In this document: one piece after another, positions 6,084-58,470 of the stretch | Numbering within the stretch: the stretch's first letter is position 1 | Layout of the letters: each line of letters opens with the position of its first letter | IMG/VR virus record: IMGVR_UViG_3300017917_001739 | Location: 1 to 64,000 of that record | DNA length: 64,000 nt | Source: a virus | Strand: one strand, 5' to 3' | The notes under the pieces: generated by a model | What the model was told of the DNA's origin: nothing | The model's input: the letters and a program-made list of their open reading frames with translations, nothing else | The model's database searches: none | Translations under genes and position numbers: made by a program

Positions 6084-6087
6084 TCCT

Positions 6088-31436: not shown

Positions 31437-31437
31437 T

Positions 31438-36006: not shown

Positions 36007-36576
36007 ATGGAAAAACTTGGTAATTATAAAATGGTCATTACTGGTCATTTAGGAACAATCGGAAATACAATTTATAGATATTATTCTGGACAATCTAATT
36101 GGCAAGTTATTGGTTATGATCTTAAATCTTCACAAAATCTTCACGAACAAACAATCTATTCATCATTTATTTCAAACTGTAAAGATGCAACTCATATTGT
36201 ATTAAACGCACATACAGGAGAACAACATTCTTGTTTAAAAGAATTACATGAACTTTATGGAACTTCAAAAAAACTTTGTATTGTAATTGGAAGTATGGCT
36301 ACTTCTTATTGGGATGAAGAAAGTGAAGTACAATATGGATTTAATGATTATTGGAAATATAAAAAATTATTAGATAAAGAAACAAGAAGAATACAAAAGT
36401 TACACACTCCATTTAAAGTTACAATGATTAGACCATCTTGGGTAGAAACACCATTAGCGAACGAATATACTGGAAAAAAACTTACAGTAGATAACGTTGT
36501 AGATATGATTAAATATGCAATTGAATATGAAGATTATATTCATTTTCCAACAGTTGAACTAGAAGCAAAGGAGTAA
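36007..36576 (+). CDS. Short-chain dehydrogenase/epimerase-like protein
   Basis: The 189-residue protein has a Rossmann start MVITGHLGTIGNTIYRY (G-x-x-G-x-x-G) and YWKYKKLLDKE, which supplies the Tyr-x-x-x-Lys pair of extended SDRs, followed by the VTMIRPSWVETP segment typical of NAD(P)-dependent epimerases. It is short, about two thirds of usual length. Next to an aminotransferase and an FkbM methyltransferase, it suggests sugar or small-molecule modification. Confidence 0.65.
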   Translation: MEKLGNYKMVITGHLGTIGNTIYRYYSGQSNWQVIGYDLKSSQNLHEQTIYSSFISNCKDATHIVLNAHTGEQHSCLKELHELYGTSKKLCIVIGSMATSYWDEESEVQYGFNDYWKYKKLLDKETRRIQKLHTPFKVTMIRPSWVETPLANEYTGKKLTVDNVVDMIKYAIEYEDYIHFPTVELEAKE

Positions 36577-36577
36577 T

Positions 36578-36682
36578 ATGTTTTATATTTGGCACACATT
36601 ATTAATTGCGAGTTTTATTGCTTTAGCATTTGGTATGGGTTATAGTATGGGTAAAAAATCAATTAAGAGAAAAATAAAATAA
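36578..36682 (+). CDS. Membrane micro-protein (34 aa)
   Basis: One membrane helix (LLIASFIALAFGMGYSM) and a basic tail (KKSIKRKIK). AAAGGAG precedes the ATG, and its TAA overlaps the ATG of the aminotransferase gene. Confidence 0.5.
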   Translation: MFYIWHTLLIASFIALAFGMGYSMGKKSIKRKIK

Positions 36683-37902
36683 TGTATGAATTAAGAAATA
36701 TTTCTCACGGAGAAATAGAAAAAACAGTTGTAAAAACTGACAGATATTGGATAGTAATGTCTGATGGCACAAAACTATTAGACATGCAATCAGGCAATAG
36801 TGCTTATACACTTGGTTATAATAATACTGAGATTATAGAAGCAATGAATGATAAATTAAAGAATGTAACTTTTATTCGTGGAAATACTGGAGAAACTGAA
36901 GCTGATACAAAAGCAATGGCACAATTTGCGATGAATGCTGGTAAATTTGATGTTTTGGCTTGGGCTATCTCAGGAAGTAGTGCAGTTGAAGCTGCAATTC
37001 ATATGAATGATCTTTATTGGAAAAGAGTAAATCCAGAAAAAGAATTAATTATTACTATGGCTCCAGGATATCATGGAACAACTCATTTAACAAGAGCAAT
37101 GGGCAATCCATATACAATGGAGTTTCCGCACAATCGTATTCGTTCTGTAAATGCGCCAACATGGCAATTTTATACTGAAAGAGAAAAAGCAGAAAAAACG
37201 TCATTAGAATTATTAGTAAAACGTTTTGAAAGAGATTCAAAAACTATTGGTGCCTTTGTAATGGAAACATGTCCTTGGATTCATGGAATATTACCATACA
37301 GTGAAAATTGGTGGAAAACAGTTCGAGAACTTTGTACTCGTTATAATATTAATATGATTACAGATGATGTAGCAATATGTTGGGGTAAATCATTATCTTA
37401 TTTTGGATATAGTACTGCAGGATATAATATTAAACCAGATATTACAGCAATTGGTAAAGCATTAACTGCAGGATATGCACCACATGGAGCAGCACTTGGA
37501 AACGAAAGAATTGGTTCAGTATTAAAAGTGAATGAGTGGGAATGGGGACATACTTGGCAACCAAATATGGCTGGTATAGGTGCAATGAAAAAAGTAAAAG
37601 AAATAATTGAAAGAGATAATTTATTCGAAAAAGGTAAAAATATTGTAGAAAAATTAACATTAATTGGAGAAGAATTAAAGGCAGATGGTTTTGTAACAAA
37701 CATGAGAGCATCTGGGTTATTTCTTGCTCTTGACACTAAAGTAGGTCTAGGATTTCAGAGCATTTCTAATTTTGTAAAAGCTGGTTTAACTGCAACAACA
37801 ACACAAACAGGAGCAATAAAAATTATTTGCAATTTATTGGCAGATGACGAGTATTTCTTTGAATTACGAAAAAGATTACGTGTTTTCTTTGAAAAACAAT
37901 AA
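36682..37902 (+). CDS. Class III PLP-dependent aminotransferase, copy 1
   Basis: The 406-residue protein has the fold-type I class III pattern: WAISGSSAVEAAI (phosphate-binding), APGYHGTTHLTRA, MITDDVAICWGK with the PLP-nitrogen Asp at 228, and the Schiff-base Lys at 259 in ITAIGKALTAGYAPHGAAL. The usual DE-V is D-D-V. A paralogue lies at 57241. Family members use glutamate, ornithine, beta-alanine or glutamate-1-semialdehyde. The real substrate is not evident. Confidence 0.8.
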   Translation: MYELRNISHGEIEKTVVKTDRYWIVMSDGTKLLDMQSGNSAYTLGYNNTEIIEAMNDKLKNVTFIRGNTGETEADTKAMAQFAMNAGKFDVLAWAISGSSAVEAAIHMNDLYWKRVNPEKELIITMAPGYHGTTHLTRAMGNPYTMEFPHNRIRSVNAPTWQFYTEREKAEKTSLELLVKRFERDSKTIGAFVMETCPWIHGILPYSENWWKTVRELCTRYNINMITDDVAICWGKSLSYFGYSTAGYNIKPDITAIGKALTAGYAPHGAALGNERIGSVLKVNEWEWGHTWQPNMAGIGAMKKVKEIIERDNLFEKGKNIVEKLTLIGEELKADGFVTNMRASGLFLALDTKVGLGFQSISNFVKAGLTATTTQTGAIKIICNLLADDEYFFELRKRLRVFFEKQ

Positions 37903-42376: not shown

Positions 42377-42937
42377 ATGGTGAAAAAAGAGAATCTAAAT
42401 AATAATCCAATTAAGCCGATTATTACTGATTGCGGATATTATAGAAGACCAACACCAGAAGAGTTATATGGTATTGAGAAATTAATACAAAAATCTAAAT
42501 TTCATCAAAATACTAAAGACATGATGTATATGTGTATTGCTAATTTACACGATTTTACTATGTGTCATGGATTTGATGATTATGGTGCTATTGGTTTCGC
42601 TAAACTTTTAAAAGAATGTGGAATCAGTTTAGATAATTATATTACTCGTAAAAGAGAAAGCACTTCAAATTATGCATCAGTTATATTTACTGAGATAGTT
42701 AAATTATTTGAAGAAAACGATAATGATAAATCTAAAAGAGTTAAGGGTATAGGAAGACGTATATTAATTGCTAAATTAAAAGAATTACTTCCGAATGTTA
42801 AATCTAGTTTTATATCTAAGTCGATTAATTCGAATATAAAATTACAAGTATTAACATATATTACTCAAAGTAAATCAAGAAAATTGCTTATTAAGGGACA
42901 ATATTGGAATACGTATGTTAAATCTAACAAAGTTTAA
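42377..42937 (+). CDS. Hypothetical protein (186 aa)
   Basis: A basic helical protein with no recognised motif (PTPEELYGIEKLIQKSKFHQ, RVKGIGRRILIAKLKELL). It overlaps the desaturase gene by 23 nt. Might bind DNA or RNA judging by charge, but that is a guess. Confidence 0.55.
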   Translation: MVKKENLNNNPIKPIITDCGYYRRPTPEELYGIEKLIQKSKFHQNTKDMMYMCIANLHDFTMCHGFDDYGAIGFAKLLKECGISLDNYITRKRESTSNYASVIFTEIVKLFEENDNDKSKRVKGIGRRILIAKLKELLPNVKSSFISKSINSNIKLQVLTYITQSKSRKLLIKGQYWNTYVKSNKV

Positions 42938-43769
42938 ATCTTTTTTTAAAGATATATCTACTCGAAACAATCTTTATTTAAGAGTGGCTTATTATATTTT
43001 TGTACATTATTTGGCATTACTTGCTTTTAAATATGGAACGATTACTACAATTTTTGTTGCGATCAGTTTTTGGTTTATTGGCGCATTTGCAGTATCAGGA
43101 TATGCGCATCGTGCACTCGCACATGGTTCAGTAAAATTTAAAAGTAAAACATTAGAACATTTATCTAATATATTTGCAATATATTCTGGTATTGGAACAC
43201 CACTTGGTTGGGCAGCACTGCATAGAATGCATCATAGTTACTTAGATACGGATAAAGATCCACATAGTCCATGGAGAATAGGATTTTGGCGATCTTATTT
43301 TCATTTATGGGATTGGCGAAAAGAAGATGTACCACCAAAAATGACGGCAGGATTACACAGAAATACGATTGCATTACGATATCATTTTAAAGCAGTACAA
43401 ACTTTAATTATTTTTTGGGTATCTCTTTTTGTATTTGCAGAATTAGCTAAAGTTCATCTAAACATATTAGGTGGATTGCCTGTAATTACTGGTGCAGCAA
43501 TTGCTGTTGTATTTGGTATTCATGGAATGGGAATAACGAACGCAGTAAGTCATTCTGGGGAAAAGCCAAAAGATATAGTTTCATTGAATCCAATCGGTGG
43601 AGCATTTATCAATTTCGGAGAAGGACAACACGAGTATCATCATTATAAACCAATGGATTATAGTTTTGGAGGTGGAATAAGCGATCCGACTGCAAGAGCA
43701 CTAGAACTTGCAGAAAAATTAAATCTAGTACAAATTAATCGAACAATAACGAGTGAATTAAATGGATAA
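42915..43769 (+). CDS. Fatty acid desaturase (membrane, three His boxes)
   Basis: Membrane fatty-acyl desaturases use a di-iron centre held by three His boxes. All are present in this 284-residue protein: HRALAH (HxxxxH), HRMHHSYLDTDKDPHS (HxxHH) and HEYHHYKP (HxxHH), with hydrophobic membrane segments before and between. The layout is that of acyl-CoA or acyl-lipid delta-9 desaturases. It lies 4.3 kb before a ketoacyl synthase gene, so acyl-chain tailoring is plausible. Confidence 0.8.
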   Translation: MLNLTKFKSFFKDISTRNNLYLRVAYYIFVHYLALLAFKYGTITTIFVAISFWFIGAFAVSGYAHRALAHGSVKFKSKTLEHLSNIFAIYSGIGTPLGWAALHRMHHSYLDTDKDPHSPWRIGFWRSYFHLWDWRKEDVPPKMTAGLHRNTIALRYHFKAVQTLIIFWVSLFVFAELAKVHLNILGGLPVITGAAIAVVFGIHGMGITNAVSHSGEKPKDIVSLNPIGGAFINFGEGQHEYHHYKPMDYSFGGGISDPTARALELAEKLNLVQINRTITSELNG

Positions 43770-43927: not shown

Positions 43928-44003
43928 TCACTCGTAGTTCAATGGATAGAATGCCAGACTACGAATCTGGAGGTTGCAAGTTCGAGTCTTGCCGAGTGAG
44001 CCA
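43928..44003 (+). tRNA. tRNA-Arg (anticodon ACG) with encoded CCA
   Basis: The 76-nt sequence folds as a full cloverleaf. The acceptor stem is TCACTCG/CGAGTGA, with discriminator G and CCA encoded at 44001-44003. The D stem is GTTC/GAAT, and the anticodon stem CCAGA/TCTGG holds loop CTACGAA, anticodon ACG. The T stem is GCAAG/CTTGC with loop TTCGAGT. A34 would be read as inosine after TadA editing, decoding CGT/CGC/CGA. It stands directly upstream of the oxygenase island. Confidence 0.93.
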
Positions 44004-44011
44004 AAATTAAT

Positions 44012-44800
44012 ATGATTAGTTATGAACCATATGCAGTTCGTCTGCAATTACCAAAACCATTTTTAAAACCATATTCTTTGGAATCTTGGTTTTCGTTACT
44101 TCCATATCCAAAAAGATGGGAAATTAATCCAAGAAAAGAATATAAACCATATTCTTCAATACTTCATCCTACAATTCATAATTACTCAAAACAAATAGTC
44201 TGGAATAAAACAACTATCAACGAATCAGGTTATACATCTGGTGTAAGATATACTCAATCTAAAGATGATATTGAAAAATTTTCTAGTTATTCTAAAATAA
44301 GTTATTCTGAAAATAGAATAGAAATACCATATATTGGAGCACCTGAAGAATGGGAAGATAGTATCGATATTGTAGATAATGAAGTGTGTGATGAGTTAGT
44401 GTCTCCTCGTTTTACTTCTTTTTTAAATTCTAGAAAACTTAAACTGCTTGGTTGGGATATTTTTATTTCTGGTCCGAATGGTTGGTTAAGAACGCACCAA
44501 GATACTACATATGAATGTACTAAATTAAATTTTGTATATTGTTTTGATAAAAATGGATTAAGTCAACAAAACTATTATGATGAAAACGATAAACTTATTT
44601 ACGAACACAATTTATCTAATGATTGGACACAACCATCATTAACTAATGTAGGAAGAATGCATAATGTAGTAAATAAAAGTAGTGGTGTAAGAATTTGTTT
44701 ATCTTATAAAATTGGTCTTTTTCAAGCTGAATATTATGGTGATGAATACACACATTGGAAAGCAATTTATCCTATTTTATCCGATTTAGTTTTAAATTAA
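44012..44800 (+). CDS. Family A oxygenase-like protein, member A1
   Basis: First of six tandem paralogues. The 262-residue protein has an N-terminal YAVRLQLPKPFLKPYS segment (an LxLPxPF motif shared by most family A members), H162-x-D164 (RTHQDTTYECTKLNFVYCF), H217 (GRMHNVVN) and R227 (VRICLSY). These fit the 2OG/Fe(II) double-stranded beta-helix, nearest to aspartyl/asparaginyl beta-hydroxylases. The ATG is 9 nt after the tRNA. Long members A1 and A2 carry a 70-residue N-terminal insertion relative to A3-A6. Confidence 0.6.
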   Translation: MISYEPYAVRLQLPKPFLKPYSLESWFSLLPYPKRWEINPRKEYKPYSSILHPTIHNYSKQIVWNKTTINESGYTSGVRYTQSKDDIEKFSSYSKISYSENRIEIPYIGAPEEWEDSIDIVDNEVCDELVSPRFTSFLNSRKLKLLGWDIFISGPNGWLRTHQDTTYECTKLNFVYCFDKNGLSQQNYYDENDKLIYEHNLSNDWTQPSLTNVGRMHNVVNKSSGVRICLSYKIGLFQAEYYGDEYTHWKAIYPILSDLVLN

Positions 44801-44801
44801 C

Positions 44802-44808
44802 CTAAATA
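44802..44808 (+). promoter_or_regulatory. Putative late-promoter motif CTAAATA
   Basis: AACCTAAATA with 5 nt between the motif and the ATG at 44814. A T4-type late start would be at or next to the ATG. Confidence 0.4.
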
Positions 44809-44813
44809 GTAGC

Positions 44814-45620
44814 ATGAGTATATTTACAATTTATCCAGAAACACACATAGGCAATAGTTGTCCACCTTATGCAGTAAGGTTACAAATGCCAGCAGGCTTT
44901 ACAAAACCATATACATCTCAGGAATGGTTTGATTCGCTTCCAATACCACCATATTGGTTTGATGAGAAAGTCATACCAAAAGAAATTCAAGCAATCGAAT
45001 ATTTAATCCATCCACTTAAATGGGAAAGAAATTTAAAAGAAGCATCATATACTTCTAAAGAACCAATCATTAAATGGCATGATAAATTGCCATTTTGGTA
45101 TAGTTGCATCGATATTATTGATAATGATGTAAATGAAGACTTTATACATCCAAGATTTACGCGTGTATTAAAAGATGTTGGATTAGAAATTGCTCATTGG
45201 GATATTTTTATTACACCAGCAAATATGTGGTTGGGTGCTCATAAAGATGCTTGGCAGCAATCAACTAAACTTAATTTCGTTTATTGTTTTAAACAAGATG
45301 GATTAAGTCAACAAAATTATTTTAATATAGACGAATCAACAAAAGATAATGTTCCAGGAGATCATGATGTAAAATACTATATCGTAAAAGAAGTAGCACT
45401 ATCAGATGGTCCTAACAGTCCTCGTATGGTTCATCAACACAATTTATCATTCGATTTAACACAACCATCATTAACAAATATTGGTATATATCATAATGTT
45501 GTAAATACTACATCTGGTCCGAGAGTTTGTTTAAGTTATTCGCTTAAATTAATTGGAAAAGATTCTATTGGTAGATGGGATGAAGTATATCCTCGTTTAC
45601 AGCATTTACAAATTAATTAA
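44814..45620 (+). CDS. Family A oxygenase-like protein, member A2
   Basis: The 268-residue protein is the closest relative of A1: both have TKLNFVYCF, NGLSQQNY or DGLSQQNY, and TQPSLTN. Predicted iron ligands are H143 and D145 (GAHKDAWQQ) and H227 (GIYHNVVN), with R237 for 2-oxoglutarate. It probably arose by duplication from A1. Confidence 0.6.
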   Translation: MSIFTIYPETHIGNSCPPYAVRLQMPAGFTKPYTSQEWFDSLPIPPYWFDEKVIPKEIQAIEYLIHPLKWERNLKEASYTSKEPIIKWHDKLPFWYSCIDIIDNDVNEDFIHPRFTRVLKDVGLEIAHWDIFITPANMWLGAHKDAWQQSTKLNFVYCFKQDGLSQQNYFNIDESTKDNVPGDHDVKYYIVKEVALSDGPNSPRMVHQHNLSFDLTQPSLTNIGIYHNVVNTTSGPRVCLSYSLKLIGKDSIGRWDEVYPRLQHLQIN

Positions 45621-45623
45621 ATT

Positions 45624-46226
45624 ATGAAATACATCGTCGATTTGTCATTACCCTTTAAATCACCAACACCATTTGGTTTAGAATCATATAGAGAAATAGC
45701 ATTAAAAGAAATAGAGAAAGATCCATTAGTTCAAAATTATGGATTAGATCTACCACCATCAGCTGCAAGTTCAGTAGCACATTCTTTTTTTAAATCATAC
45801 GGATATCTTATAGTTGGTTGTGAATACTTTTATTTTCAACCGAAGTTTGCTATGGGTATTCATATTGATGGCTCTCGATATTGCCATAAAGCAAAATTTA
45901 ACTGGGCATTTGGTGGAAAACATTCATTCAGATTTTTTGAACCATTAACTTCAGGAGTTAGTGATGGTGTATCAAATAATGCGAATAGTCCATACAGTCT
46001 TCAATTTAAAGAAAATGAGGTTGAAGAAAAGGCAAATCAAACTACAGGAAGTCCATCTTTAGTTTGTGTAGGAGTACCACATCAAGTTATTAATGGATCT
46101 GAACCACTTGAATTATTTAATATTAGTATTTGGAAAGAAGGATTAAAACGAGAACAAGAATTTATAGATCTTGGTGGAATGAATATGGAAGAAGGATTAG
46201 AAGTTTTTAAAAAATATGTTATTTAA
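45624..46226 (+). CDS. Family A oxygenase-like protein, member A3 (2OG-binding Arg absent)
   Basis: The 200-residue protein has H80-x-D82 (GIHIDGSRYCHKAKFNWAF) and H153 (GVPHQVIN), but the conserved Arg ten residues later is missing (GSEPLELFNISIW). That could mean a changed co-substrate, use of another basic residue, or a dead enzyme. It overlaps A4 by 11 nt. Confidence 0.55.
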   Translation: MKYIVDLSLPFKSPTPFGLESYREIALKEIEKDPLVQNYGLDLPPSAASSVAHSFFKSYGYLIVGCEYFYFQPKFAMGIHIDGSRYCHKAKFNWAFGGKHSFRFFEPLTSGVSDGVSNNANSPYSLQFKENEVEEKANQTTGSPSLVCVGVPHQVINGSEPLELFNISIWKEGLKREQEFIDLGGMNMEEGLEVFKKYVI

Positions 46227-46899
46227 TTTTAAACATTTAAATAAAGAAAATATTCCAGAACCATTAACAAAAGAAGGAATGGATTGGATGCAGTCATATT
46301 CATTTACAAAACAAACTAAAATTTGGGTTGAAACAAAATATCATAATCCAGAATATTTGTTATGGTTAGAAACAATAGGATTAAGCATTACTGATATAGA
46401 ATTATTTTTAAATCCTGCAAATCATTCTATGCCTATTCATATAGATGGAAATGAATTACATGACGAGTTTAAATTAAATTTTGCATATAATCCTAGAGGA
46501 AATAGTTTAATGAATTGGTTTTCTCCACATAAAGAAGCGAAGGCAAAAAGAGAAGGAGTGTTATATGCTAATCAAGATGCAAGACCAATTAATACAAAAG
46601 ATTTATATTGGTATCCTGAAGAAGTTGATTTAATTGATTCTGCAGATATAGATGTAGCAATAGTACAAGTTGGGCAACCACATAATGTAAAAACTACATT
46701 TAGTCCAAGAAGATGTTTATCTTGTGTATTTGATAAAATTTTAATTAAAGATGTATTTACTACAAATGAAGCAATATTAAAAGGTATGCCACTTGAGACA
46801 ATCGCAATCGAAAGAGATAAAGCTGTAGACGCAAAGATATTACAAAATATTGTTACAATGCCTGAAGCAATAGAATTATTTAAGGATTATATAATATGA
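46216..46899 (+). CDS. Family A oxygenase-like protein, member A4
   Basis: The 227-residue protein has H75-x-D77 (MPIHIDGNELHDEFKLNFAY), H156 (GQPHNVKT) and R165 (SPRRCLSC). It is similar to A0 at 7531 in size and motif spacing (GQPHNV...SPR). It overlaps both neighbours (11 and 4 nt), which supports translation in one operon. Confidence 0.6.
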   Translation: MLFNFKHLNKENIPEPLTKEGMDWMQSYSFTKQTKIWVETKYHNPEYLLWLETIGLSITDIELFLNPANHSMPIHIDGNELHDEFKLNFAYNPRGNSLMNWFSPHKEAKAKREGVLYANQDARPINTKDLYWYPEEVDLIDSADIDVAIVQVGQPHNVKTTFSPRRCLSCVFDKILIKDVFTTNEAILKGMPLETIAIERDKAVDAKILQNIVTMPEAIELFKDYII

Positions 46900-47474
46900 A
46901 CAAATATTGCGTTCATTTAAATTTGCCATTTAAAAAATTATTTAACGTAGAAGATTGGAAAAAACTACTTCCAAAAAAAGGACATTTTCCAGTACCAAAA
47001 AATTTAATTGATAAAGAATTAATAGATTGGTTTGAATTAAAGGGATTTATATTAAAGAATGCAGATGTTTTTATTTCACCTCCTGCGTTTCGATTACCTA
47101 TCCATGTTGATGGTGAACAAATGAGCGATTCAGTTGCGATTAATTGGCAATTTTGTGAAGAATCAGGTTCTTATATGGAATGGTGGCAACCAAAAGATCC
47201 TAAAAAACATTCAATGGTTGCTCCAGGAACAGAAAAAGAAGCATATGCTATTTCGACAACACCATATGCACTCAACTGGAAAGATGATGAATGTAATTTA
47301 TTACATAGATCTGAAATAAAATTTCCATCATTAGTGAACATTGGAGTACCACATTCAATGACTAATGCTACTAGCAGTACAAGATGGGCAGTAAGTTTAA
47401 CTTGGTTTAATTATAAAGATATTAACATAGAATGGGATTATGCAATTACAAAACTTAAATCGTTCATTTCGTAA
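46896..47474 (+). CDS. Family A oxygenase-like protein, member A5
   Basis: The 192-residue protein has H70-x-D72 (LPIHVDGEQMSDSVAINWQF), H153 (GVPHSMTN) and R163 (STRWAVSLTW). The YCVHLNLPFKKLF start shows the family LxLPF motif. The ATG overlaps the previous stop by 4 nt. Confidence 0.6.
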   Translation: MNKYCVHLNLPFKKLFNVEDWKKLLPKKGHFPVPKNLIDKELIDWFELKGFILKNADVFISPPAFRLPIHVDGEQMSDSVAINWQFCEESGSYMEWWQPKDPKKHSMVAPGTEKEAYAISTTPYALNWKDDECNLLHRSEIKFPSLVNIGVPHSMTNATSSTRWAVSLTWFNYKDINIEWDYAITKLKSFIS

Positions 47475-48108
47475 ATTAAAATTACCATTTGAACATCCAT
47501 TTACAAACGATTATGTTTTTCCAAAAGAAAAAGATCAATCGATTGATGCGAAATACGCAGATCATTATGGAGAAAGACATTTAATTAATCCAAGTTTAAT
47601 TGATTGGGCAAAAAATATAGGATTGGGTGTATTAAGAATAGAAAGATTTTCAAGTAAACCAAATTATCGTATGTATGTACATACTGATAATGACGATTGG
47701 ATAGACAATATTGTTAAAATTATATGGTGTTATTGTCCAACTAACGATCATTCAATGGTTTGGTATGACGTAAAAGATCCGTCATGGTATGATACTATTA
47801 CAACTAATGACAGTGGTCCGACGATGAAATTTCCTGATTTTAATTTAAAAAAAGAAATAGCAAGACATACTATATTGCCGAATGAACCCATATTAGCAAA
47901 TACTGGACAGCCACATAACATAGAAAATGGCTCTAATTATCGTCATGTAGTTTGTGCTTGGTTTTATAAATTAAACTCAAACGAGTCTATAAACGTCGAT
48001 GGATTAACTTATCCGAAACCTCTTGAGTGGGACGATGCACTAAATAGTATGAAGAATTTTATAATTAATGATGAATTAAACGTTGATGATGCGAATCAAA
48101 TAATATGA
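47440..48108 (+). CDS. Family A oxygenase-like protein, member A6
   Basis: The 222-residue protein begins with LKLPFEHPF, has H81-x-D83 (YVHTDNDDWIDNIVKIIW), H159 (GQPHNIEN) and R168 (YRHVVCAWF). It overlaps A5 by 35 nt and the ketoacyl synthase gene by 4 nt, so the last oxygenase and the synthase are tightly coupled. Confidence 0.6.
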   Translation: MQLQNLNRSFRKLKLPFEHPFTNDYVFPKEKDQSIDAKYADHYGERHLINPSLIDWAKNIGLGVLRIERFSSKPNYRMYVHTDNDDWIDNIVKIIWCYCPTNDHSMVWYDVKDPSWYDTITTNDSGPTMKFPDFNLKKEIARHTILPNEPILANTGQPHNIENGSNYRHVVCAWFYKLNSNESINVDGLTYPKPLEWDDALNSMKNFIINDELNVDDANQII

Positions 48109-49283
48109 TGAATAAAATTTATGTTGTAGGTTATGGTATGATTGATAGTCTTGGGAATAATCCTAAAGATTGTTTTGATCGAATGTTAGATAATAATGAT
48201 TATTCTAAAGATATACCAGAACTGATTGCGGATAATAGTAAAGTATATAGAGGAGCAATATTTGATCCTAATACTTGTATTATACCAAAAGAATTTGACA
48301 ATAAGATGTTACGTTCATTAACAAATGCACAGAAAATGATGTTGCATGCTGTGAATGATGCACTGATTATGTCAAAATTACCACATCACTACGATGTGGC
48401 AACTCTTCTATCAACTGTGTCAAATGATACAGAATTTTTAGATGAGTTGTATTTACCGACGAAAAGTAATAAAAGAGTAAACCCACGTAAGAGTGCTAAT
48501 CGTATTCCAGATATGGGATGTTCTCATATTACTTCTCATTACAAATTTATGGGTCTAAGTGCTGCAACTTTCGCGAGTTGTTCAACTGGACTTGTAACTA
48601 TTGATTATGGAATGCGTCTCTGCGATGAATATGAATATGTCATTGTAGGAGGTGCAGATGCAGGTTGTTTTCCTATGGCGATTAAATATTTTAACACCTT
48701 AGGTGCAGTTGCGAATACAAGTATGCCTTTCGATGATTCTCGTGCAGGATTTCTGATGGGAGATGGATGTGGTGTACTTATATTACAAAGTGAAAAAATG
48801 GTCAAGAAATATGGCAGTACAGTGCATGCAACTTTATATCCTTGTGGTATGGCGAGTGATGCACTTGATATGACAAGTCCTGCAAATGATGGACGAGGTG
48901 CTCGTATTTCTATGTCTAAAGCAATGGGTCATGTGAATGATATAGATTTTGTGTGTGCGCACGCAACTTCTACACCAATTGGTGATCCAATCGAGTATGA
49001 AACAGTAGTCAGTTTCGTAGGTGAAAAACCTATTTGGGCTCCAAAATCCAAAATAGGACACACTCTTGCTGCAGCTGGTATATTAGAATGTATTTACTCA
49101 ATCCTTTCAATGAAAGAGGGAATCGTTCCACATATACAAAATTTAAAACAGGCATCTTGCGATACAAAAGGAATTTTGGTTCGTGAGAATTTAAAAACAA
49201 ACAAAAAAGTCTTGCGTACATTAAATAATTCTTTCGGTTTCGGAGGAAAATGTATGTCGCAAGTAATAGAGGTAAATAAGTAA
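48105..49283 (+). CDS. Beta-ketoacyl synthase (KAS II/FabF-like)
   Basis: KAS enzymes condense an acyl thioester with malonyl-ACP. This 392-residue thiolase-fold protein has the Cys-His-His triad: C159 in FASCSTGL, H286 in VCAHATSTPIGD and H319 in KSKIGHTLAAAG, so it should be active. The GFGG ending (NNSFGFGGKCMS) is also typical. No ACP, ketoreductase or other fatty-acid gene is visible in the window, so it would use host ACP. Placement inside an oxygenase operon is unusual for phage. Confidence 0.85.
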   Translation: MMNKIYVVGYGMIDSLGNNPKDCFDRMLDNNDYSKDIPELIADNSKVYRGAIFDPNTCIIPKEFDNKMLRSLTNAQKMMLHAVNDALIMSKLPHHYDVATLLSTVSNDTEFLDELYLPTKSNKRVNPRKSANRIPDMGCSHITSHYKFMGLSAATFASCSTGLVTIDYGMRLCDEYEYVIVGGADAGCFPMAIKYFNTLGAVANTSMPFDDSRAGFLMGDGCGVLILQSEKMVKKYGSTVHATLYPCGMASDALDMTSPANDGRGARISMSKAMGHVNDIDFVCAHATSTPIGDPIEYETVVSFVGEKPIWAPKSKIGHTLAAAGILECIYSILSMKEGIVPHIQNLKQASCDTKGILVRENLKTNKKVLRTLNNSFGFGGKCMSQVIEVNK

Positions 49284-49286
49284 AAG

Positions 49287-49778
49287 ATGACTCAAGCAAA
49301 GTTAAATCTACAGGAGTTTCCCCAACGCGAAACTTCAAAAATAAAATCTGTTCCTTCTTCACTTGAGAACAGTGGAAATAATAATGTGGGAAGAGTATTC
49401 CATGAAAAATATGCAGATACTGCTATTCAATCATGGGGTTATCACTTAATATTAGATGCGAAAGGATGTAAAAAGAATTTTAACGAACCTAAAATTCTAG
49501 AAACTTTCGTAGTGGATTTATTAAAAAGAATAAAGATGAATGCATGGGGAACCCCATGGATTACACACTTTGCTGAAAAGCCAGAAATTGCTGGTTGGAC
49601 AGTAATACAACCATTGACAACAAGTTCATTAACTATACACTTTTTAGATATAAATGGTGATATGTATTTTGATTTGTTTTCATGTAAAACTTTTGATATT
49701 GAAATGGTGAAAAGTATGATTATAGAATATTTTGATCCTATTTCAATGAAGGATCAATATCTTGTACGACAAGCATAA
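49287..49778 (+). CDS. SpeD-like pyruvoyl-dependent decarboxylase
   Basis: SpeD decarboxylates S-adenosylmethionine for spermidine synthesis. Phage homologues may also have become ornithine or arginine decarboxylases. The 163-residue protein has a GYHLILDAKGC start, TTSSLTIHF and YFDLFSCKTFD. Aligned with bacterial SpeD, S113 is the Ser that becomes pyruvoyl, H118 and C133 keep the exact 15-residue spacing of H68 and C83. The Glu before the cleavage site is Thr112 and the following His is Ser114. A 45-residue N-terminal extension precedes the core. Confidence 0.75.
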   Translation: MTQAKLNLQEFPQRETSKIKSVPSSLENSGNNNVGRVFHEKYADTAIQSWGYHLILDAKGCKKNFNEPKILETFVVDLLKRIKMNAWGTPWITHFAEKPEIAGWTVIQPLTTSSLTIHFLDINGDMYFDLFSCKTFDIEMVKSMIIEYFDPISMKDQYLVRQA

Positions 49779-50241
49779 TATAACACCAAAAGAAGCATTA
49801 CAAGAGTGGCTGGCGAGGATTAAAATTCCTCGTCAAGCACTCGATGGTCATTCTATTTGTCCTTTCAGTAAAGGTATTAGTGTGCCAACTCCAGAATATT
49901 TACATATGGACGAAAATTTTATAGCTCCATCTGTTGAGAATATTCGAAGAATTAAAGTATATACAGTTACAAATTTAAACATTACACCTGAATCTATGGA
50001 TTCTTGGTGTTCTTTCTATGCGAACAAATTTCCAGATTTAATATTTTTAGCTGACCATAAAGATCGTAAAACATTTATAAATGGCGTACAAACAAATAAT
50101 GGTTATTATAATTTTATGTTATGCCAACCTAAAAAAGAATTAAATGAAGCAAGAGATTCACTAATTAAAACAAATTATTATAGTTTTTGGGATGAGAATT
50201 ATCTCAAAGATGTATGGGGTAAAGATTATCAACCTAAATAA
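49762..50241 (+). CDS. Unknown protein with CPFSKG motif (159 aa, TTG start)
   Basis: The frame starts at TTG 49762, with AAGGA 8 nt before it and overlapping SpeD by 17 nt. No better start exists without losing the first conserved part. The motif GHSICPFSKG at about residues 29-38 could be a metal or catalytic Cys site. The rest is alpha/beta. I recognise no family. It always stands between SpeD and the amidinotransferase here, so it may be part of the pathway. Confidence 0.55.
   Translation: MYDKHNITPKEALQEWLARIKIPRQALDGHSICPFSKGISVPTPEYLHMDENFIAPSVENIRRIKVYTVTNLNITPESMDSWCSFYANKFPDLIFLADHKDRKTFINGVQTNNGYYNFMLCQPKKELNEARDSLIKTNYYSFWDENYLKDVWGKDYQPK
50234..50240 (+). promoter_or_regulatory. 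Putative late-promoter motif CTAAATA at the amidinotransferase start
   Basis: AACCTAAATA overlaps the upstream stop codon with 7 nt to the ATG at 50248. The overlap with coding sequence makes chance more likely, but spacing matches 9029 and 44814. Confidence 0.35.
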
Positions 50242-50247
50242 ATTATT

Positions 50248-51336
50248 ATGAGTGTTTGGACAGATTATGATCCTTTAGAGGAAATTATAGTAGGAAATAT
50301 TCCTACACCTGATTATTATAAATCGTTTGTAAGTGCAGAAGTAATGCGTGTGTTAGAACCCATTATTCTTGAAACTAAAGAAGATTTAGATAATATGCAA
50401 AAAGTATTTGAATCTTTAAATGTAAAGGTTTATCGTCCAGAAATACTTCCGTTTGAAAGTAATTTAAAACTTCCTAAATTTAAAATTAAAAATCCTATCG
50501 CACCAATTGTTCCAAGAGATTCCTATATTGTTTATGGAAATACAATCTATTCAGCATATACTTCAATGGCTGATCGATGGTTAGAGTCATTAGCATTTTA
50601 TAATATATTTTTAGAAAAGTACACAAAAAATTCTTATAACTGGATAAGTACACCAGTTCCACTACTTAAAGATTTTCCACCTGACACTCAATGGTTTACA
50701 CATGGTGGCGACAGATATGGAAGAGATTTGGTGAATAGAATATTATGGCATACTGCAACAATGTATAAAGTTGGCGATTCAATAATTGTAAATTCAGCTG
50801 GTCCTGGAACAGCATTAGGATTAGATTGGATGAAAAGAAATATTCCTTCTACAAAATTTATTGATAATGTAAATAAGCCACATCGTGGTTGGGGACATAT
50901 CGATCAGTTCTTTTTTATGACTAATGACACTACTTGTTTTTGTACAGATATAAATTATGTACCAGAAGCTATATTGAAAAATAAAAATATAAATGTACAT
51001 TCTTTTGGTCATTTAATTACAAATATAGATATGATACAATACGATCATCGAATGACAGCTTCAGAAGGAAAATATAGTATTGAATGGATTAAAGAATGGA
51101 TATCTGAGTGGCGTGGATTCGCACAAGAAGTTGCTTTTGATAGTAATGTCGTAGTGGTAGATGAATCGAACATAGTTGTAAGCAATCATCAACCAAAATT
51201 AGAAGAATTTTTTAAATCGCATGGAATTAAATTACATGTGGCAAATCAAAGACAAGGTGGTTTTTGGGATGGTGGTGTTCATTGTTTAACACTTGATATA
51301 AAAAGAAAAGGGGAACGAAGAAATGTCTTGGATTAA
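50248..51336 (+). CDS. Amidinotransferase (AGAT-like, pentein fold)
   Basis: Arginine amidinotransferases move the amidino group of arginine to an amine such as glycine, or are the related arginine deiminases. The 362-residue protein has PRDSYIVYGNTIY, WFTHGGDRYGRD, RGWGHIDQFFF (catalytic His with the HxD pattern) and C346 in GGVHCLTLDI as nucleophile. The start VWTDYDPLEEIIVGN is typical of the family. In this operon it may act on a product of the neighbouring SpeD/KAS/oxygenase enzymes. Confidence 0.82.
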   Translation: MSVWTDYDPLEEIIVGNIPTPDYYKSFVSAEVMRVLEPIILETKEDLDNMQKVFESLNVKVYRPEILPFESNLKLPKFKIKNPIAPIVPRDSYIVYGNTIYSAYTSMADRWLESLAFYNIFLEKYTKNSYNWISTPVPLLKDFPPDTQWFTHGGDRYGRDLVNRILWHTATMYKVGDSIIVNSAGPGTALGLDWMKRNIPSTKFIDNVNKPHRGWGHIDQFFFMTNDTTCFCTDINYVPEAILKNKNINVHSFGHLITNIDMIQYDHRMTASEGKYSIEWIKEWISEWRGFAQEVAFDSNVVVVDESNIVVSNHQPKLEEFFKSHGIKLHVANQRQGGFWDGGVHCLTLDIKRKGERRNVLD

Positions 51337-52366
51337 TATAAAAAATTATAATCATTATTCTGATTTAGAAAAAATAGTTCCATACTTACAACAAGATATA
51401 TTAGCTTGGGTACAAAAACATAATATAGAAACAGATGCATTAAGTGCTTATGGTACTGGAGATAAAGCAAAAACTAAAATTAGCCGTTTAACGACTGTAC
51501 CAAAACAATATGTTGGCGAATTGACTGAAGTTCCTTCAAATAATTTAGAATTTAAACATGCAGATGATTGGAAAACTATTCCATGTTATTATAATAGAGT
51601 TTGGGATAAAATAGTTTTTCCTAAGTCTTGGGAAGCATTGAGTAAATTAAATGGAGTGTATCAAATACTTATAAATTTTATCAAACCACATGGTAAAATA
51701 ACTCCACATAAAGATACAAGTAATTGGGATCGTATTGAAGAACAATTAAAAAGAAAAGTAGATGGTTATAGTGCGGTTGTTACATTATTTTCTGGAATGA
51801 AAAACAAAAATGAAAAAACAGTAGGAATGGATGTCGAAGGAATTCAAAAATATCCACTAGCAGGAGAAATAGTTTGTTTTGATGGTAAAGAAGCTGGCCA
51901 TAGTATGTGGAATGACACGAATGAGTGGAGAATTACAGCAGTTATAGATATTGATAAAAAACATTTTATTAATGAGAGATTAAAAGAAATTATTATTAAT
52001 GGTAATAAAGAAACAATTATATTACCTAAAAAACCACATCCGATAATTAAATTAGAAAACGATCATTATGTAACTTTAAAAGAACCAACTATAAGAGAGA
52101 TAAATATAGTTGTAGATTCAGAAAATGAAAGCATTATCTATAAACATATTCTTTCGAATGTTAAATATTTAACAGATAATGGTGGAATAAAACATTATGT
52201 TGATTCAGTACCAGACGATGAATTGCTTTTTTATTGGAACAATTTAGGATCTAAAACGATTAATTTATTAAAACAGTATTTTATAGAATATAAAGAATAT
52301 CATAATATAATGAATTATATAGAATTACATGCAGAAGAAATGATAGAGGATTCAAAGGGAGAATAG
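51323..52366 (+). CDS. Family B Asp/Asn-hydroxylase-like protein, member B1
   Basis: First of four tandem paralogues, overlapping the amidinotransferase gene by 14 nt. The 347-residue protein has H129-x-D131 (ITPHKDTSNWDRIEE), GEIVCFDGKEAGHSMWN with H193, and R203 (EWRITAVID). The FDG...H...N...WR-x-x-x-x-D block is close to aspartyl/asparaginyl beta-hydroxylases. It alone carries a C-terminal extension of about 130 residues without known motif. Confidence 0.68.
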   Translation: MSWINIKNYNHYSDLEKIVPYLQQDILAWVQKHNIETDALSAYGTGDKAKTKISRLTTVPKQYVGELTEVPSNNLEFKHADDWKTIPCYYNRVWDKIVFPKSWEALSKLNGVYQILINFIKPHGKITPHKDTSNWDRIEEQLKRKVDGYSAVVTLFSGMKNKNEKTVGMDVEGIQKYPLAGEIVCFDGKEAGHSMWNDTNEWRITAVIDIDKKHFINERLKEIIINGNKETIILPKKPHPIIKLENDHYVTLKEPTIREINIVVDSENESIIYKHILSNVKYLTDNGGIKHYVDSVPDDELLFYWNNLGSKTINLLKQYFIEYKEYHNIMNYIELHAEEMIEDSKGE

Positions 52367-52370
52367 AATT

Positions 52371-53090
52371 ATGTGGATTGATACTAAATTATATAAAAAT
52401 TATGACGATTTAATGTTTTTAGGCAAAGTAATACAATCAGACTTTGAAAAATGGAAACTTAAATATGGTACAAATGAAGCATATGCAAAACGTATTCAAG
52501 TTCAAAAATTTGAACATCATGACGTCTATCCAGATTATGCTCATGTAAAAGGTGGTGACGATCTATACCATAGACCAGAATCTATTGAAGATCGACATAA
52601 TCCAAACGAATATTGGTTTTGCGATGCAGTATTTACTGATTGTGGAAATAAGAAAATGAAAAATTTTGAAGACTGGAAAGAGTCAGCAGAATTGGCTTTA
52701 AAACTTCCAGGAATAGTACAATTTATTGTTAATTTTGTAAAACCAAAATCAGAATTGCCATCTCATGATGATACAGGTGGATGGAAAAGAATTGAAAAAG
52801 ATATAGGAAGACCACTAAATGGATTCAGTAATGTATTAGGATTAGCAACTAATGCTACTAATATGGGATTTGTTTTTAAAAATAGATACACTGGAGTACC
52901 AGAAAAAAAAGGTTGGAATAGTGGTGAGTGGGTTTCTTTCGAAGGAAAAACACATTATCATGATGTATATAATCATAGCAACGACTGGCGTGTTACAGCA
53001 ATTATAGATTTAGAATATACGCAATATAATTTAAAAAATTCAGACCTCTATTATTTACAAAATAGATGGGCTACTTATACAGGAGAATAA
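52371..53090 (+). CDS. Family B Asp/Asn-hydroxylase-like protein, member B2
   Basis: The 239-residue protein starts MWIDTKLYKNYDDL, like B3 and B4. Predicted ligands H132 and D134 (LPSHDDTGGWKRIE), H197 (HYHDVYNHSNDWR) and R207. GGGAG precedes the ATG. An insertion around residues 45-75 distinguishes it from B3. Confidence 0.68.
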   Translation: MWIDTKLYKNYDDLMFLGKVIQSDFEKWKLKYGTNEAYAKRIQVQKFEHHDVYPDYAHVKGGDDLYHRPESIEDRHNPNEYWFCDAVFTDCGNKKMKNFEDWKESAELALKLPGIVQFIVNFVKPKSELPSHDDTGGWKRIEKDIGRPLNGFSNVLGLATNATNMGFVFKNRYTGVPEKKGWNSGEWVSFEGKTHYHDVYNHSNDWRVTAIIDLEYTQYNLKNSDLYYLQNRWATYTGE

Positions 53091-53091
53091 T

Positions 53092-53667
53092 ATGTGGATA
53101 GATCCAAAAAAATTCAAACATTATGAAATGTTAAAATCGTTATCAGTTGCTTTACAAGCAGACTATTCTACATTTTCAAGGAATCATAATATTAAAGAAA
53201 AAGGAATTAATGTTTTTCGTTACGAATATCCAAATGCAGAACATGAACATGCAGATTCTTGGTGGGCTATTCCACTTATACAAGGAACAAAAGCTGTACC
53301 TAATGACTGGCATCGTTCTACTGCAGTTTTAAAAGAAATTCCTGGAGTATTCCAATCAATAGTAAATTTCATTACACCATTTGGTGGATTACCATTACAT
53401 AAAGATTTTGGTAGTTGGCAAAGAATTGAAGAATCAGTTGGTCATGCTGTAAAAGGCTGGACTATTGCAATCGGTATTGATATGCCAAGCAATGATCCGA
53501 AAATACTTGGAATAGAATTTGAAAACGATTCAGCTCCAAGAGCATATGCAAATAACGAAATAGTTGCTTTTGATGGAAGAAATTATATGCATAAAGTTTG
53601 GAATAAAACTGGAAATTGGAGAGTGTCTGCAATTGTAGATACAAATGAAACAGAGTGGGCTTTATAG
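53092..53667 (+). CDS. Family B Asp/Asn-hydroxylase-like protein, member B3
   Basis: The 191-residue protein is the shortest member and shows the core: MWIDPKKFKHYEML start, PGVFQSIVNFITPFGGLPLH with H103-x-D105, then EIVAFDGRNYMHKVWN with H167, and R177 (NWRVSAIVD). ACAGGAGAA precedes the ATG. Confidence 0.68.
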   Translation: MWIDPKKFKHYEMLKSLSVALQADYSTFSRNHNIKEKGINVFRYEYPNAEHEHADSWWAIPLIQGTKAVPNDWHRSTAVLKEIPGVFQSIVNFITPFGGLPLHKDFGSWQRIEESVGHAVKGWTIAIGIDMPSNDPKILGIEFENDSAPRAYANNEIVAFDGRNYMHKVWNKTGNWRVSAIVDTNETEWAL

Positions 53668-53677
53668 AGGAGGAATT

Positions 53678-54259
53678 ATGTGGTTAGGTGATCCAATACA
53701 ATATAAAGATTATGGTGCATTGCAAAAGCTCATGCAAGCCCTTTTAAACGATTATGCAGCATGGAGAAAGAATTTTAGTATAGAAACTGATACTGTGAAC
53801 GCAGACGAAAGATACGCAATGCCTGAAGCGAATAAAGGGGGTTTTAAGGCTCTTCCTGTAATAGATGGTCGAAAAGTACAAGAAAGGTGGAGTTTAGGTT
53901 GGAATCGAAGCATGAAAGCAGCATTTGAAATTGAAGGAATGATTGATATGTGTATTAATTTTATTCGTCCAGGAAAAATGCTTCCAGTCCATCATGATGG
54001 TTATGTTTGGGATTGGATACGTCAAAGTGTTGGAGATCCATCAATTAGTGGATATACAGTAAGTTTTGGAATTGATATACCAGATCCAGAAAATCAAGCA
54101 TTGATATTTGATGGAATTAAAAGAGTTTGGAAAACTGGAGAATTTAGAGCATTTAATGGACATGATATTCAACATCAATTAGTAAATAATGCAACTAATC
54201 CAGAACATTGGAGAGTAACTGCAGTAATGGAAATAGAGGGTAAATATTTTAACATATAA
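53678..54259 (+). CDS. Family B Asp/Asn-hydroxylase-like protein, member B4
   Basis: The ATG at 53678 follows a very strong ribosome site (GAGGAGG), preferred over an upstream ATG at 53645 inside B3. The 193-residue protein has H105-x-D107 (LPVHHDGYVWDWIRQS), H166 (IQHQLVNN) and R179 (HWRVTAVME). An Asn-Pro insertion lies between the last His and Arg. It ends the island, and a promoter follows within 6 nt. Confidence 0.66.
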   Translation: MWLGDPIQYKDYGALQKLMQALLNDYAAWRKNFSIETDTVNADERYAMPEANKGGFKALPVIDGRKVQERWSLGWNRSMKAAFEIEGMIDMCINFIRPGKMLPVHHDGYVWDWIRQSVGDPSISGYTVSFGIDIPDPENQALIFDGIKRVWKTGEFRAFNGHDIQHQLVNNATNPEHWRVTAVMEIEGKYFNI

Positions 54260-57152: not shown

Positions 57153-57244
57153 TGAATATAAAACAACATAAACCTAGTATTTGGGTAGTGCTAATTATTA
57201 TTGGTTGGTTATTAGCTATCGTATCCATTGTTTGTTACTTATGA
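57152..57244 (+). CDS. Membrane micro-protein (30 aa)
   Basis: A basic start (MNIKQHKPS) and one membrane helix (IWVVLIIIGWLLAIVSIV). It overlaps the stop of the exonuclease and the ATG of the aminotransferase gene. Confidence 0.45.
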   Translation: MNIKQHKPSIWVVLIIIGWLLAIVSIVCYL

Positions 57245-58470
57245 TTGAATTAAAACCAAATAGCACTCAAGAACATATTAAAGAAATTGCCTTTACAGAA
57301 AAATATTGGGTACATTATTTAAATGCACCTCCACATTTAGAAATACAATCTGGTAATGCTGCTTTCGGTTTAGGTTATCAAGCTGAAGATTTAAGAGATA
57401 TACTTTCAAAAAATAAAATAGATTTTATTCGTGGAAATAGTGGTGAAACAAGTGAAGTTGTTGAAAAATTAAATGAGACACTTTGTTCTACTGCAAATAT
57501 GGAAAGTATCGCTTATGCAGTTTCAGGCTCAGATGCAAACGAAGCTGCCATTTATATGCATGATACTTATTGGGTAAATATTGGAAAACCAAAAACACAT
57601 TTAGTAAGTTTTTATCCTTGCTATCATGGAACTACATATTTAAATCGACAATTTAAAAATGATATGCTTCCGAGCAAAGAACTAAGTCGTGTTAAAATGA
57701 TTCGTGGTAAAGAATGGTACACGGACGCTGAACGTATAGAACATGAAACAATGCTTACTGATTCTTTCATTACCACTTTACAAGCAAATCCAACTATTGG
57801 TGGATGTATAATGGAAAGTATGCCTTGGAATGAAACGATTGCGCCATATAGTCAAGAATTTTGGAAAACTATTCGACAAATTTGTGATGAATTTAATATA
57901 TTAATGATTGTTGATGATGTAGCAGGATATGGTGGTAAAGTAGGAACACTTTTTACACATACATATTATGGAGTAACTCCAGATATTGTAACAATCGGAA
58001 AAGCATTAACAAATGGAATGGTTCCTTTAAGTGCAGCATTAGCGAATGAAAAAGTTACAAAAGGAGTTCGTAAAAAGAATTGGGATTGGGGGCACACTTG
58101 GCAACCAAACATGTACGGAGTAGAACTTGCGAATAGAGTAATTGAGATATTAAATTCTAAAGGTTATTTAACGACGGATCATCAAAATTATATTGGTAAA
58201 AAGATAAAAGAATTAGAAACATTCCTTGTGAATGAAAAACTTGCGACATCTATAATTGGTAAAGGTTGCTGGAGATCAATTCAAACTAATCCAATTGCAA
58301 CTCCTATTGGTTTATATCATTTAAGTAATGCTGGAATGGCAGCAACTACTTCTCATAAAATGATTAAATTAATTTTGCCACTGATTGTAGATGACGAATA
58401 TTTTGACGAATTAAAGGCGAGAACGACTTTATGTTTAACAACTAGAAAAGAGGAGATAGAAAACTTATGA
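57241..58470 (+). CDS. Class III PLP-dependent aminotransferase, copy 2
   Basis: The ATG at 57241 matches the family start, and a longer frame would cover the micro-protein. The 409-residue protein is a paralogue of the enzyme at 36682: both have IQSGNAAFGLGYQ or MQSGNSAYTLGYN, FIRGN-G-T, a GY-HGTT loop, MIVDDVAGYGGK and the Schiff-base Lys in IVTIGKALTNG. As in copy 1, the usual D-E-V is D-D-V. The pair may act on different steps of one pathway or form a hetero-oligomer. It overlaps the next gene by 4 nt. Confidence 0.8.
   Translation: MIELKPNSTQEHIKEIAFTEKYWVHYLNAPPHLEIQSGNAAFGLGYQAEDLRDILSKNKIDFIRGNSGETSEVVEKLNETLCSTANMESIAYAVSGSDANEAAIYMHDTYWVNIGKPKTHLVSFYPCYHGTTYLNRQFKNDMLPSKELSRVKMIRGKEWYTDAERIEHETMLTDSFITTLQANPTIGGCIMESMPWNETIAPYSQEFWKTIRQICDEFNILMIVDDVAGYGGKVGTLFTHTYYGVTPDIVTIGKALTNGMVPLSAALANEKVTKGVRKKNWDWGHTWQPNMYGVELANRVIEILNSKGYLTTDHQNYIGKKIKELETFLVNEKLATSIIGKGCWRSIQTNPIATPIGLYHLSNAGMAATTSHKMIKLILPLIVDDEYFDELKARTTLCLTTRKEEIENL

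Follow-up and report, generated by a model that had tools for sequence, protein, structure and literature searches.

Tandem AspH-type oxygenase genes in an amidinotransferase-centred gene cassette of a phage, with a possible role in small-molecule synthesis

Introduction

2-Oxoglutarate (2OG) oxygenases are common and unexplained metabolic genes of marine phages. Here we describe a tandem array of four such genes, array B (B1-B4, positions 51323-54259), in the first 64,000 bases (hereafter, the window) of the 68,128-base IMG/VR phage record IMGVR_UViG_3300017917_001739. One described system that they resemble is human AspH, whose oxygenase domain (PF05118) has in common with family B (B1-B4 and their relatives) the fold, the distal H...R site and the sequence family; the phage proteins differ from AspH in having no TPR domain and in being encoded in a biosynthetic neighbourhood. 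AspH also carries H-x-G where family B has H-x-D, and so lacks that Asp.

Two further systems come from bacterial secondary metabolism. HsvA, a polyamine amidinotransferase according to the title of a reference, belongs to the hsvABC (phevamine A) cluster and is the nearest solved relative of the amidinotransferase (AT) encoded directly upstream of array B, which offers a link to polyamines. The phage cassette differs from hsvABC in that oxygenases are the main partners of the enzyme, in that the genes are those of a phage, and in that no counterpart of HsvB or HsvC was noticed, although no dedicated search for them was made. The nonheme hydroxylase of the caprazamycin pathway (7v4f/7v4m, which by title and topic appears to be the Cpz10 of PMC9814697) is a small tailoring hydroxylase of an amino-acid/nucleoside metabolite, as we propose for the phage enzymes, but it shares only 12-14% identity with them and its setting is a bacterial antibiotic cluster.

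The host of the window phage is probably a freshwater SAR11 bacterium, as was inferred for this phage group in the relevant part of PMC7029224. That paper already names AspH, fabF, desaturase and speH among the genes of such phages, fabF and stearoyl-CoA desaturase being treated as lipid genes of freshwater pelagimyophages, whereas its passages on these phages (group PMP-D) describe neither tandem arrays, nor an amidinotransferase, nor a single pathway. Our literature search found no description of the cluster as a pathway, and none of a phage aminotransferase/amidinotransferase/2-oxoglutarate gene cluster. We propose, tentatively and with slightly less than even confidence, that B1-B4 are functionally separate tailoring hydroxylases in a phage-encoded, small-molecule biosynthetic cassette built around the HsvA-like amidinotransferase.

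Results

Array B consists of intact open reading frames (ORFs) arranged head to tail on the + strand (Table 1), and their products are mutual paralogues (BLAST among window proteins, E 1e-14 to 1e-27, identity 25-34%), as a sequence-only reading of the window had proposed. For B4, the longest ORF (53645-54259, 204 aa) has a start that overlaps B3; judging from the start of its orthologues, the true start is probably 53678 (MWLGDP...). The motif H-x-D-x3-W-x-[RW]-I, also named in that reading, is present in all four proteins (HKDTSNWDRI, HDDTGGWKRI, HKDFGSWQRI and HHDGYVWDWI), while other parts of its description had to be amended. The distal motif, given as FDG/FNG...H...N...WR[VI], is found in four of four only when its beginning is widened to F[DEN]G, as B2 has FEG, and the shared N-terminus M-W-I/L...Y-K-x-Y does not fit B1 (which starts MSWI and has YNHY) or B3 (FKHY). 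Likewise, B1 alone among the four paralogues has the C-terminal domain of ~130 residues, but it occurs elsewhere in nature: B1 orthologues from the freshwater relatives have a divergent form of it (profile E 2.7e-4 to the window), and a B1 orthologue in contig G022 (209 aa) is without it. Among the hits listed from 3,972 ORFs of the compared records, this region had no match beyond B1 orthologues. Modelled within whole B1, it was predicted with middling confidence and was barely covered by structural matches.

That family B comprises AspH-type 2OG/Fe(II) oxygenases is close to certain from sequence and structural models. PF05118 matched 28 of the 32 members at E<=0.01; within the window only B1 (26.4 bits) passed the curated cut-off of 22.6 bits, with B3 (21.8), B2 (17.8) and B4 (16.3) below it. 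Residues G111, P122, H129, D131, H193, N197 and R203 (B1 numbering) are invariant in 32/32, and the iron/2OG site H-x-D...H...R is retained in all of these relatives. The B1 model had a mean predicted local distance difference test (pLDDT) score of 83, and exceeded 90 across most of residues 1-215. When it was compared with solved structures using Foldseek, human AspH structures came out best (1.5e-8), ahead of proline cis-4- and 3-hydroxylases; VIA-align placed it on human AspH with Z 17.2 and 2.2 A over 163 residues (2.2-2.5 A across AspH structures), the next match being the caprazamycin-pathway hydroxylase (Z 12.5), its best match outside AspH. Searching PDB sequences with the family B profile gave weak matches, to a Naegleria Tet-like protein (0.005) and to AspH (0.02). 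Because the site residues are conserved and the predicted fold is that of AspH, B1-B4 are very probably active 2OG/Fe(II) oxygenases. Their earlier label, "Asp/Asn-hydroxylase-like", is best taken as the name of a fold, as the gene neighbourhood points to a small-molecule rather than a protein Asp/Asn substrate.

Relatives of array B were sought in viral and cellular genomes. No tblastn match to B1 or B3 at E<=1e-3 was found in the 50,697 phage records of INPHARED. A viral scan with the single B1 protein gave no match, and one with an alignment of the four B paralogues gave 22 loci. When 84,980 genomes of bacteria and archaea were scanned for patterns from the B and AT alignments, no relative came up; as such scans detect only pattern-bearing relatives, a virus-only origin of B and AT is not proven.

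Phylogenetic analysis of the 32 family B proteins by maximum likelihood pointed to a true tandem expansion, with B1, B2, B3 and B4 of the window each grouping with its own orthologues (support 100/99, 99/99, 94/89 and 100/100, respectively). The duplications thus predate the split of the window phage, its freshwater relatives and G022, and a recent duplication in the window phage alone is ruled out, since every clade holds orthologues, and those of B1, B2 and B4 are well supported. In the freshwater relatives, the B1 type has expanded a second time and comprises three genes. Five close pairs of B genes gave a ratio of non-synonymous to synonymous substitution rates (dN/dS) of ~0.13-0.19, indicating that each copy is under purifying selection. 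Chance or misread frames can also be dismissed as the source of these ORFs, which are intact, have orthologues and show dN/dS <0.2 in the five close pairs.

These patterns bear on two other explanations of the array. Many 2OG-type oxygenases in one genome could serve to consume 2OG and so alter host nitrogen signalling, an effect of a kind proposed for cyanophages in a section of PMC3037559. Four separately conserved paralogues with low dN/dS fit distinct substrates better than bulk use of 2OG, and we regard this explanation as very improbable. Alternatively, each paralogue might, like AspH, hydroxylate the side chains of a phage or host protein of its own, which would agree with AspH being the closest solved structure (Z 17 versus 12.5 for the next) and with several paralogues of conserved identity having several targets. 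Such a role would leave the association of the array with AT, aminotransferase, SpeD and orf159 genes, and likewise with halogenases and radical-SAM enzymes (see below), unexplained, and is in our estimate unlikely.

We therefore turned to the surroundings of array B, where it is likely that B1-B4 belong to one cassette with their neighbours. The window is largely syntenic with its close relatives, the largest of which (G001, IMGVR_UViG_3300032267_000607; 144,834 bp with a 123-bp end repeat) shares its gene order, starting with the genes around position 162 and continuing almost to the window end. Searching for loci with both the beta-ketoacyl synthase (KS) and AT yielded 28 rows, corresponding to 14 distinct records by contig name. 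All 14, the 144.8-kb one included, preserve the order KS-SpeD-orf159-AT-B1...B3-B4, so that the array order is indeed conserved in related phages; B2 was seen in eight of them, and an A-type gene (from the family of the second array, described below) lies inside the B array in three (L002, L003, L007).

The association extends to marine phages outside this group. Among the best 80 of the 119 loci found in a viral scan with AT, the enzyme was accompanied by two B genes and a class III aminotransferase (AmT) in L037 and L048, by an A gene and AmT in L040-L043, L045, L046 and L053, and by orf159 and B in L051, L052, L056-L058, L061 and L062; in other loci it stood alone or with orf159 only. On five contigs chosen for their AT alone (G010, G011, G013, G015, G017), seven of the eight PF05118 genes lay <=6 kb from it (expected 1.5, exact P 4e-5). 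Moreover, AT was present in all 11 loci retrieved with marine B genes, three of which were new contigs by name. Marine A genes retrieved 61 loci, with AT in 35, AmT in 45 and at least one of AT, AmT, orf159 and SpeD in 46; 17 of the 61 carried two or more A genes.

One of these cassettes, that of G010 (L114, L115; ~52-68 kb), is natural-product-like: it holds two genes for flavin-dependent halogenases (Trp_halogenase, E 1e-88), a pair of radical-SAM genes (one also matching SPASM), two PF05118 genes, one 2OG-FeII_Oxy_5 gene, and genes for a methyltransferase, an amidinotransferase and an aminotransferase. Separately, the annotated amidinotransferase of Campylobacter phage CP220 (L133) was observed amid two genes resembling nucleotide-sugar transferases and several of the radical-SAM type, so that an enzyme of this type is accompanied there by another oxidation toolkit.

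The genes that precede array B were also characterized (Table 1). AT is predicted to be an arginine amidinotransferase that retains the catalytic Cys and His: H217, which we take to be the catalytic His, D219 and C346 are invariant in 9/9 aligned sequences, and the Cys segment aligns with that of HsvA. Its partner orf159 is a small protein in which a C-P close to the N-terminus is invariant; it adjoins or lies near AT in several distant phages, giant phages included, and had no PDB match better than E 0.24. CP220 gp085, which lies beside the amidinotransferase of that Campylobacter phage, was considered as an orf159 homologue and ruled out by profile. Creatine synthesis was considered as well, and no GAMT was identified in our data; a viral GAMT is discussed in part of PMC11360552.

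The SpeD-like protein passed for PF02675, while its score for TIGR03330 (S-adenosylmethionine (AdoMet) decarboxylase, class 1b; 25.3 bits) was below the equivalog cut-off of 75.65. It retains the residues aligned to Ser, His and Cys at what we presume to be the pyruvoyl-forming positions. Its specificity was considered in light of two reports, namely that SpeDC ornithine decarboxylases have four diagnostic residues, Gln, Thr, Phe and Tyr (PMC10407285), and that arginine decarboxylase activity is proven for a SpeD homologue from a pelagiphage (PMC9992855). The succession Q, T, F and Y reported for the ornithine decarboxylases occurs in all seven SpeD family members, a comparison of order and not of exact columns. 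The nearest phage relatives of the window protein are those of Sinorhizobium phages (34% identity), among which the SpeD of phiN3 is reported to be a proven AdoMet decarboxylase, and this points away from an ornithine or arginine decarboxylase. Spermidine synthase (PF01564) was over its cut-off in none of 12 records, the 144.8-kb one included, with one sub-threshold match in G010; the host could supply this enzyme. Elsewhere, in L190 (5945-6689), two SpeD-like genes stand in tandem beside A-A-AmT, one with the canonical motif (by eye) and one of the window type.

The window has two class III aminotransferase genes, and among the omega-transaminases matched by AmT1 in PDB are putrescine and polyamine transaminases. 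KS scored 205 bits for TIGR03150 (FabF/KAS II), below the equivalog cut-off of 493.75. Scanning for promoters and terminators returned fewer promoter-like sites than in shuffled sequences and nothing usable on operon borders.

Fatty-acid genes in the cluster raise the alternative that it remodels membranes. LpxO and OlsC are AspH-fold hydroxylases of the acyl chains of lipid A and ornithine lipids, respectively, and the B enzymes could act similarly, changing the host envelope during infection together with the FabF-like KS within the cluster and the desaturase-like product of the gene directly upstream of array A. The latter had no Pfam match at E<=0.01. That PMC7029224 counts both fabF and a stearoyl-CoA desaturase gene among the lipid genes agrees with such a role, as do the desaturases near A, AmT and AT in L153. 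OlsC was also the sole NCBIfam match of B3, the one paralogue scanned, but at E 0.086 and 12 bits against an equivalog cut-off of 450, which B3 does not reach. Given further that the recurrent partners of the oxygenases are amidinotransferase and aminotransferase, and that the distant cassettes have no KS, membrane remodelling appears improbable to us.

Upstream of KS lies a second oxygenase array, array A, which comprises six genes and not four, and a seventh family member, A0, lies apart from it. That the two arrays frame the KS, SpeD and amidinotransferase genes was borne out, with orf159 also between them. The A5 model (pLDDT 91.6) is a double-stranded beta-helix (DSBH), and of the H-x-D...H residues, H153 is invariant and H70 and D72 occur in >=90% of 27 members. 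Family A is accordingly predicted, from its model, to belong to the DSBH/cupin oxygenase superfamily. Foldseek matches of A5 were weak (best, NO66 at 8e-5); VIA-align gave the caprazamycin-pathway hydroxylase as best (Z 10.2, 2.7 A, 125 residues), while a lysine halogenase and further amino-acid hydroxylases scored near Z 9. Sequence search of family A against PDB gave no match, no window protein of A paired significantly with one of B in BLAST, and the two profiles aligned with 5% probability (E 0.007). The claim of two expansions of the same enzyme type thus stands for the fold and not beyond it, as PF05118 matched 0/27 family A members at E<=1 and the structures closest to this family belong to other small hydroxylases. 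Runs of four A genes in L152, L153 and L159 show that these oxygenases have expanded in tandem repeatedly. The family-A gene at 7464-8123 of L182 was seen away from any amidinotransferase, among genes resembling (by eye) those for T4 tail tube/portal and head protease/scaffold/capsid.

A tRNA-Arg gene lies just upstream of array A, and the same tRNA was found there in nine of nine related loci (L008, L009, L011, L013, L014, L026, L028, L033, L131). Arginine is also the expected amidino donor, which is possibly a coincidence. Another oxygenase gene, Tet_JBP (E 1.2e-22), is followed by glycosyltransferase-like and HAD-like genes and A0, just after UvsX- and DnaB-like genes (all but Tet_JBP and A0 named by eye). 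A polyamine- or guanidine-like group, if made by the cluster, might be attached to phage DNA or tRNA, with the TET/JBP oxygenase and the glycosyltransferase-like gene in the same system, and both the tRNA-Arg that heads array A and the alignment of the distal B profile with the Naegleria Tet-like dioxygenase would suit such hypermodification. Weighing against it, a C5-cytosine methyltransferase was found in 0/12 records, Tet_JBP was limited to four of 30 records, each from this phage group, and no tRNA was found near the cassette in any of the seven distant loci examined; we judge it quite unlikely. With no C5 methyltransferase in these records, Tet_JBP might act on thymine or on host-made 5-methylcytosine. 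Finally, a third set of tandem paralogues, in this case a pair (E 5e-33), sits between NrdA- and NrdB-like genes (names by eye); it shows H-x-D...H-like motifs and had no match in Pfam.

Table 1. Positions of array B and of the other genes discussed in the window
Feature	Position	Strand	Evidence
Tet_JBP oxygenase, glycosyltransferase-like, HAD-like, A0	4788-8127		
A0, seventh family-A gene, outside array A	7531..8127	+	BLAST to A4 3e-23, A3 2e-15
Third tandem paralogue pair	30741-32118		
SDR-like gene and class III aminotransferase AmT1	36007..37902	+	PF00202 6.8e-51; relatives beside AT in distant phages
Fatty-acid-desaturase-like gene	42915..43769	+	NCBIfam DesA-family 5.2e-9, below cut-off
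tRNA-Arg (ACG)	43928..44003	+	ARAGORN
Array A, six tandem genes of predicted cupin/DSBH fold (A1 44012, A2 44814, A3 45624, A4 46216, A5 46896, A6 47440)	44012..48108	+	Mutual BLAST
KS, beta-ketoacyl synthase, FabF-like but divergent	48105..49283	+	PF00109 2.9e-23, PF02801 9.6e-22
SpeD-like pyruvoyl decarboxylase	49287..49778	+	PF02675 E 1.1e-12
orf159, AT partner, weakly DUF6875/DUF1415-like, TTG start	49762..50241	+	5/21 (DUF6875) and 2/21 (DUF1415) family members match at E<=1
AT, predicted amidinotransferase, best PDB match HsvA	50248..51336	+	phmmer HsvA 3.3e-19, StrB1 1.1e-15, AGAT 1.1e-15
B1, AspH-type 2OG/Fe(II) oxygenase (residues ~1-216) and ~130-aa C-terminal region	51323..52366	+	347 aa; PF05118 E 7.2e-6
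B2, AspH-type oxygenase	52371..53090	+	239 aa; paralogue of B1/B3/B4; PF05118 E 0.0031
B3, AspH-type oxygenase	53092..53667	+	191 aa; PF05118 E 1.9e-4; orthologues 51-73% identical
B4, AspH-type oxygenase (probable start)	53678..54259	+	PF05118 E 0.0093; paralogue BLAST
AmT2, second class III aminotransferase	57181..58470	+	PF00202 2.2e-42

Discussion

Given the AT, SpeD and KS genes and the gene content of G010, array B and its surroundings are most simply explained as a small-molecule pathway. The proposed cassette would comprise the desaturase-like gene, array A, KS, the SpeD-like gene, orf159, AT, array B and the class III aminotransferases, and its product would be an unusual and heavily oxidised compound. 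An arginine- or ornithine-derived amine would be provided by the SpeD-like enzyme and/or host enzymes, and AT would move the amidino group of arginine onto an amine; the A and B oxygenases would then hydroxylate or otherwise oxidise the intermediates at different positions, while the aminotransferases and KS would build or exchange parts of the skeleton. That the product is a small molecule is about an even proposition; its being of a polyamine or guanidine type is a guess, as are the order of the steps and the use that the phage makes of the product.

Several observations weigh against this account. No acyl carrier protein (PF00550) was found in any of 10 records and no peptide synthetase or ligase was noticed, although no family-level search for the latter was made, and the role of KS in such a pathway is thus unexplained; KS is, moreover, confined to phages of this group. 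Fifteen of the 61 A-type loci were without AT, AmT, orf159 or SpeD, several of these being contigs of <7 kb, and the association on the A side is partly circular because the A query (A6) was built from genes of loci selected for AT. Furthermore, the giant-phage record G026 has three PF05118 genes far from AT.

On a broader scale, aquatic T4-like phages may possess a modular, virus-specific secondary metabolism, in which a core of AT, orf159 and an aminotransferase recruits tandem hydroxylases (A and B, or halogenases and radical-SAM enzymes in one phage) and yields, in the course of infection, oxidised metabolites of a guanidino- or polyamine-like kind. These might serve to compact DNA, to decorate nucleic acids or as weapons against the host or rival phages. 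We consider this generalization possible but rather doubtful.

Array B is more interesting as one half of an oxygenase-rich, AT-centred cassette than on its own. The conserved link of AspH- and cupin-fold oxygenases with AT, aminotransferase, SpeD and, in one phage, halogenases offers a testable hypothesis for many phage 2OG oxygenases, namely a role in small-molecule synthesis. If this role is true, aquatic phages would run a real biosynthetic pathway, beyond patching the metabolism of their hosts, and their tandem arrays would document how enzymes were duplicated and became specialised within phage genomes.

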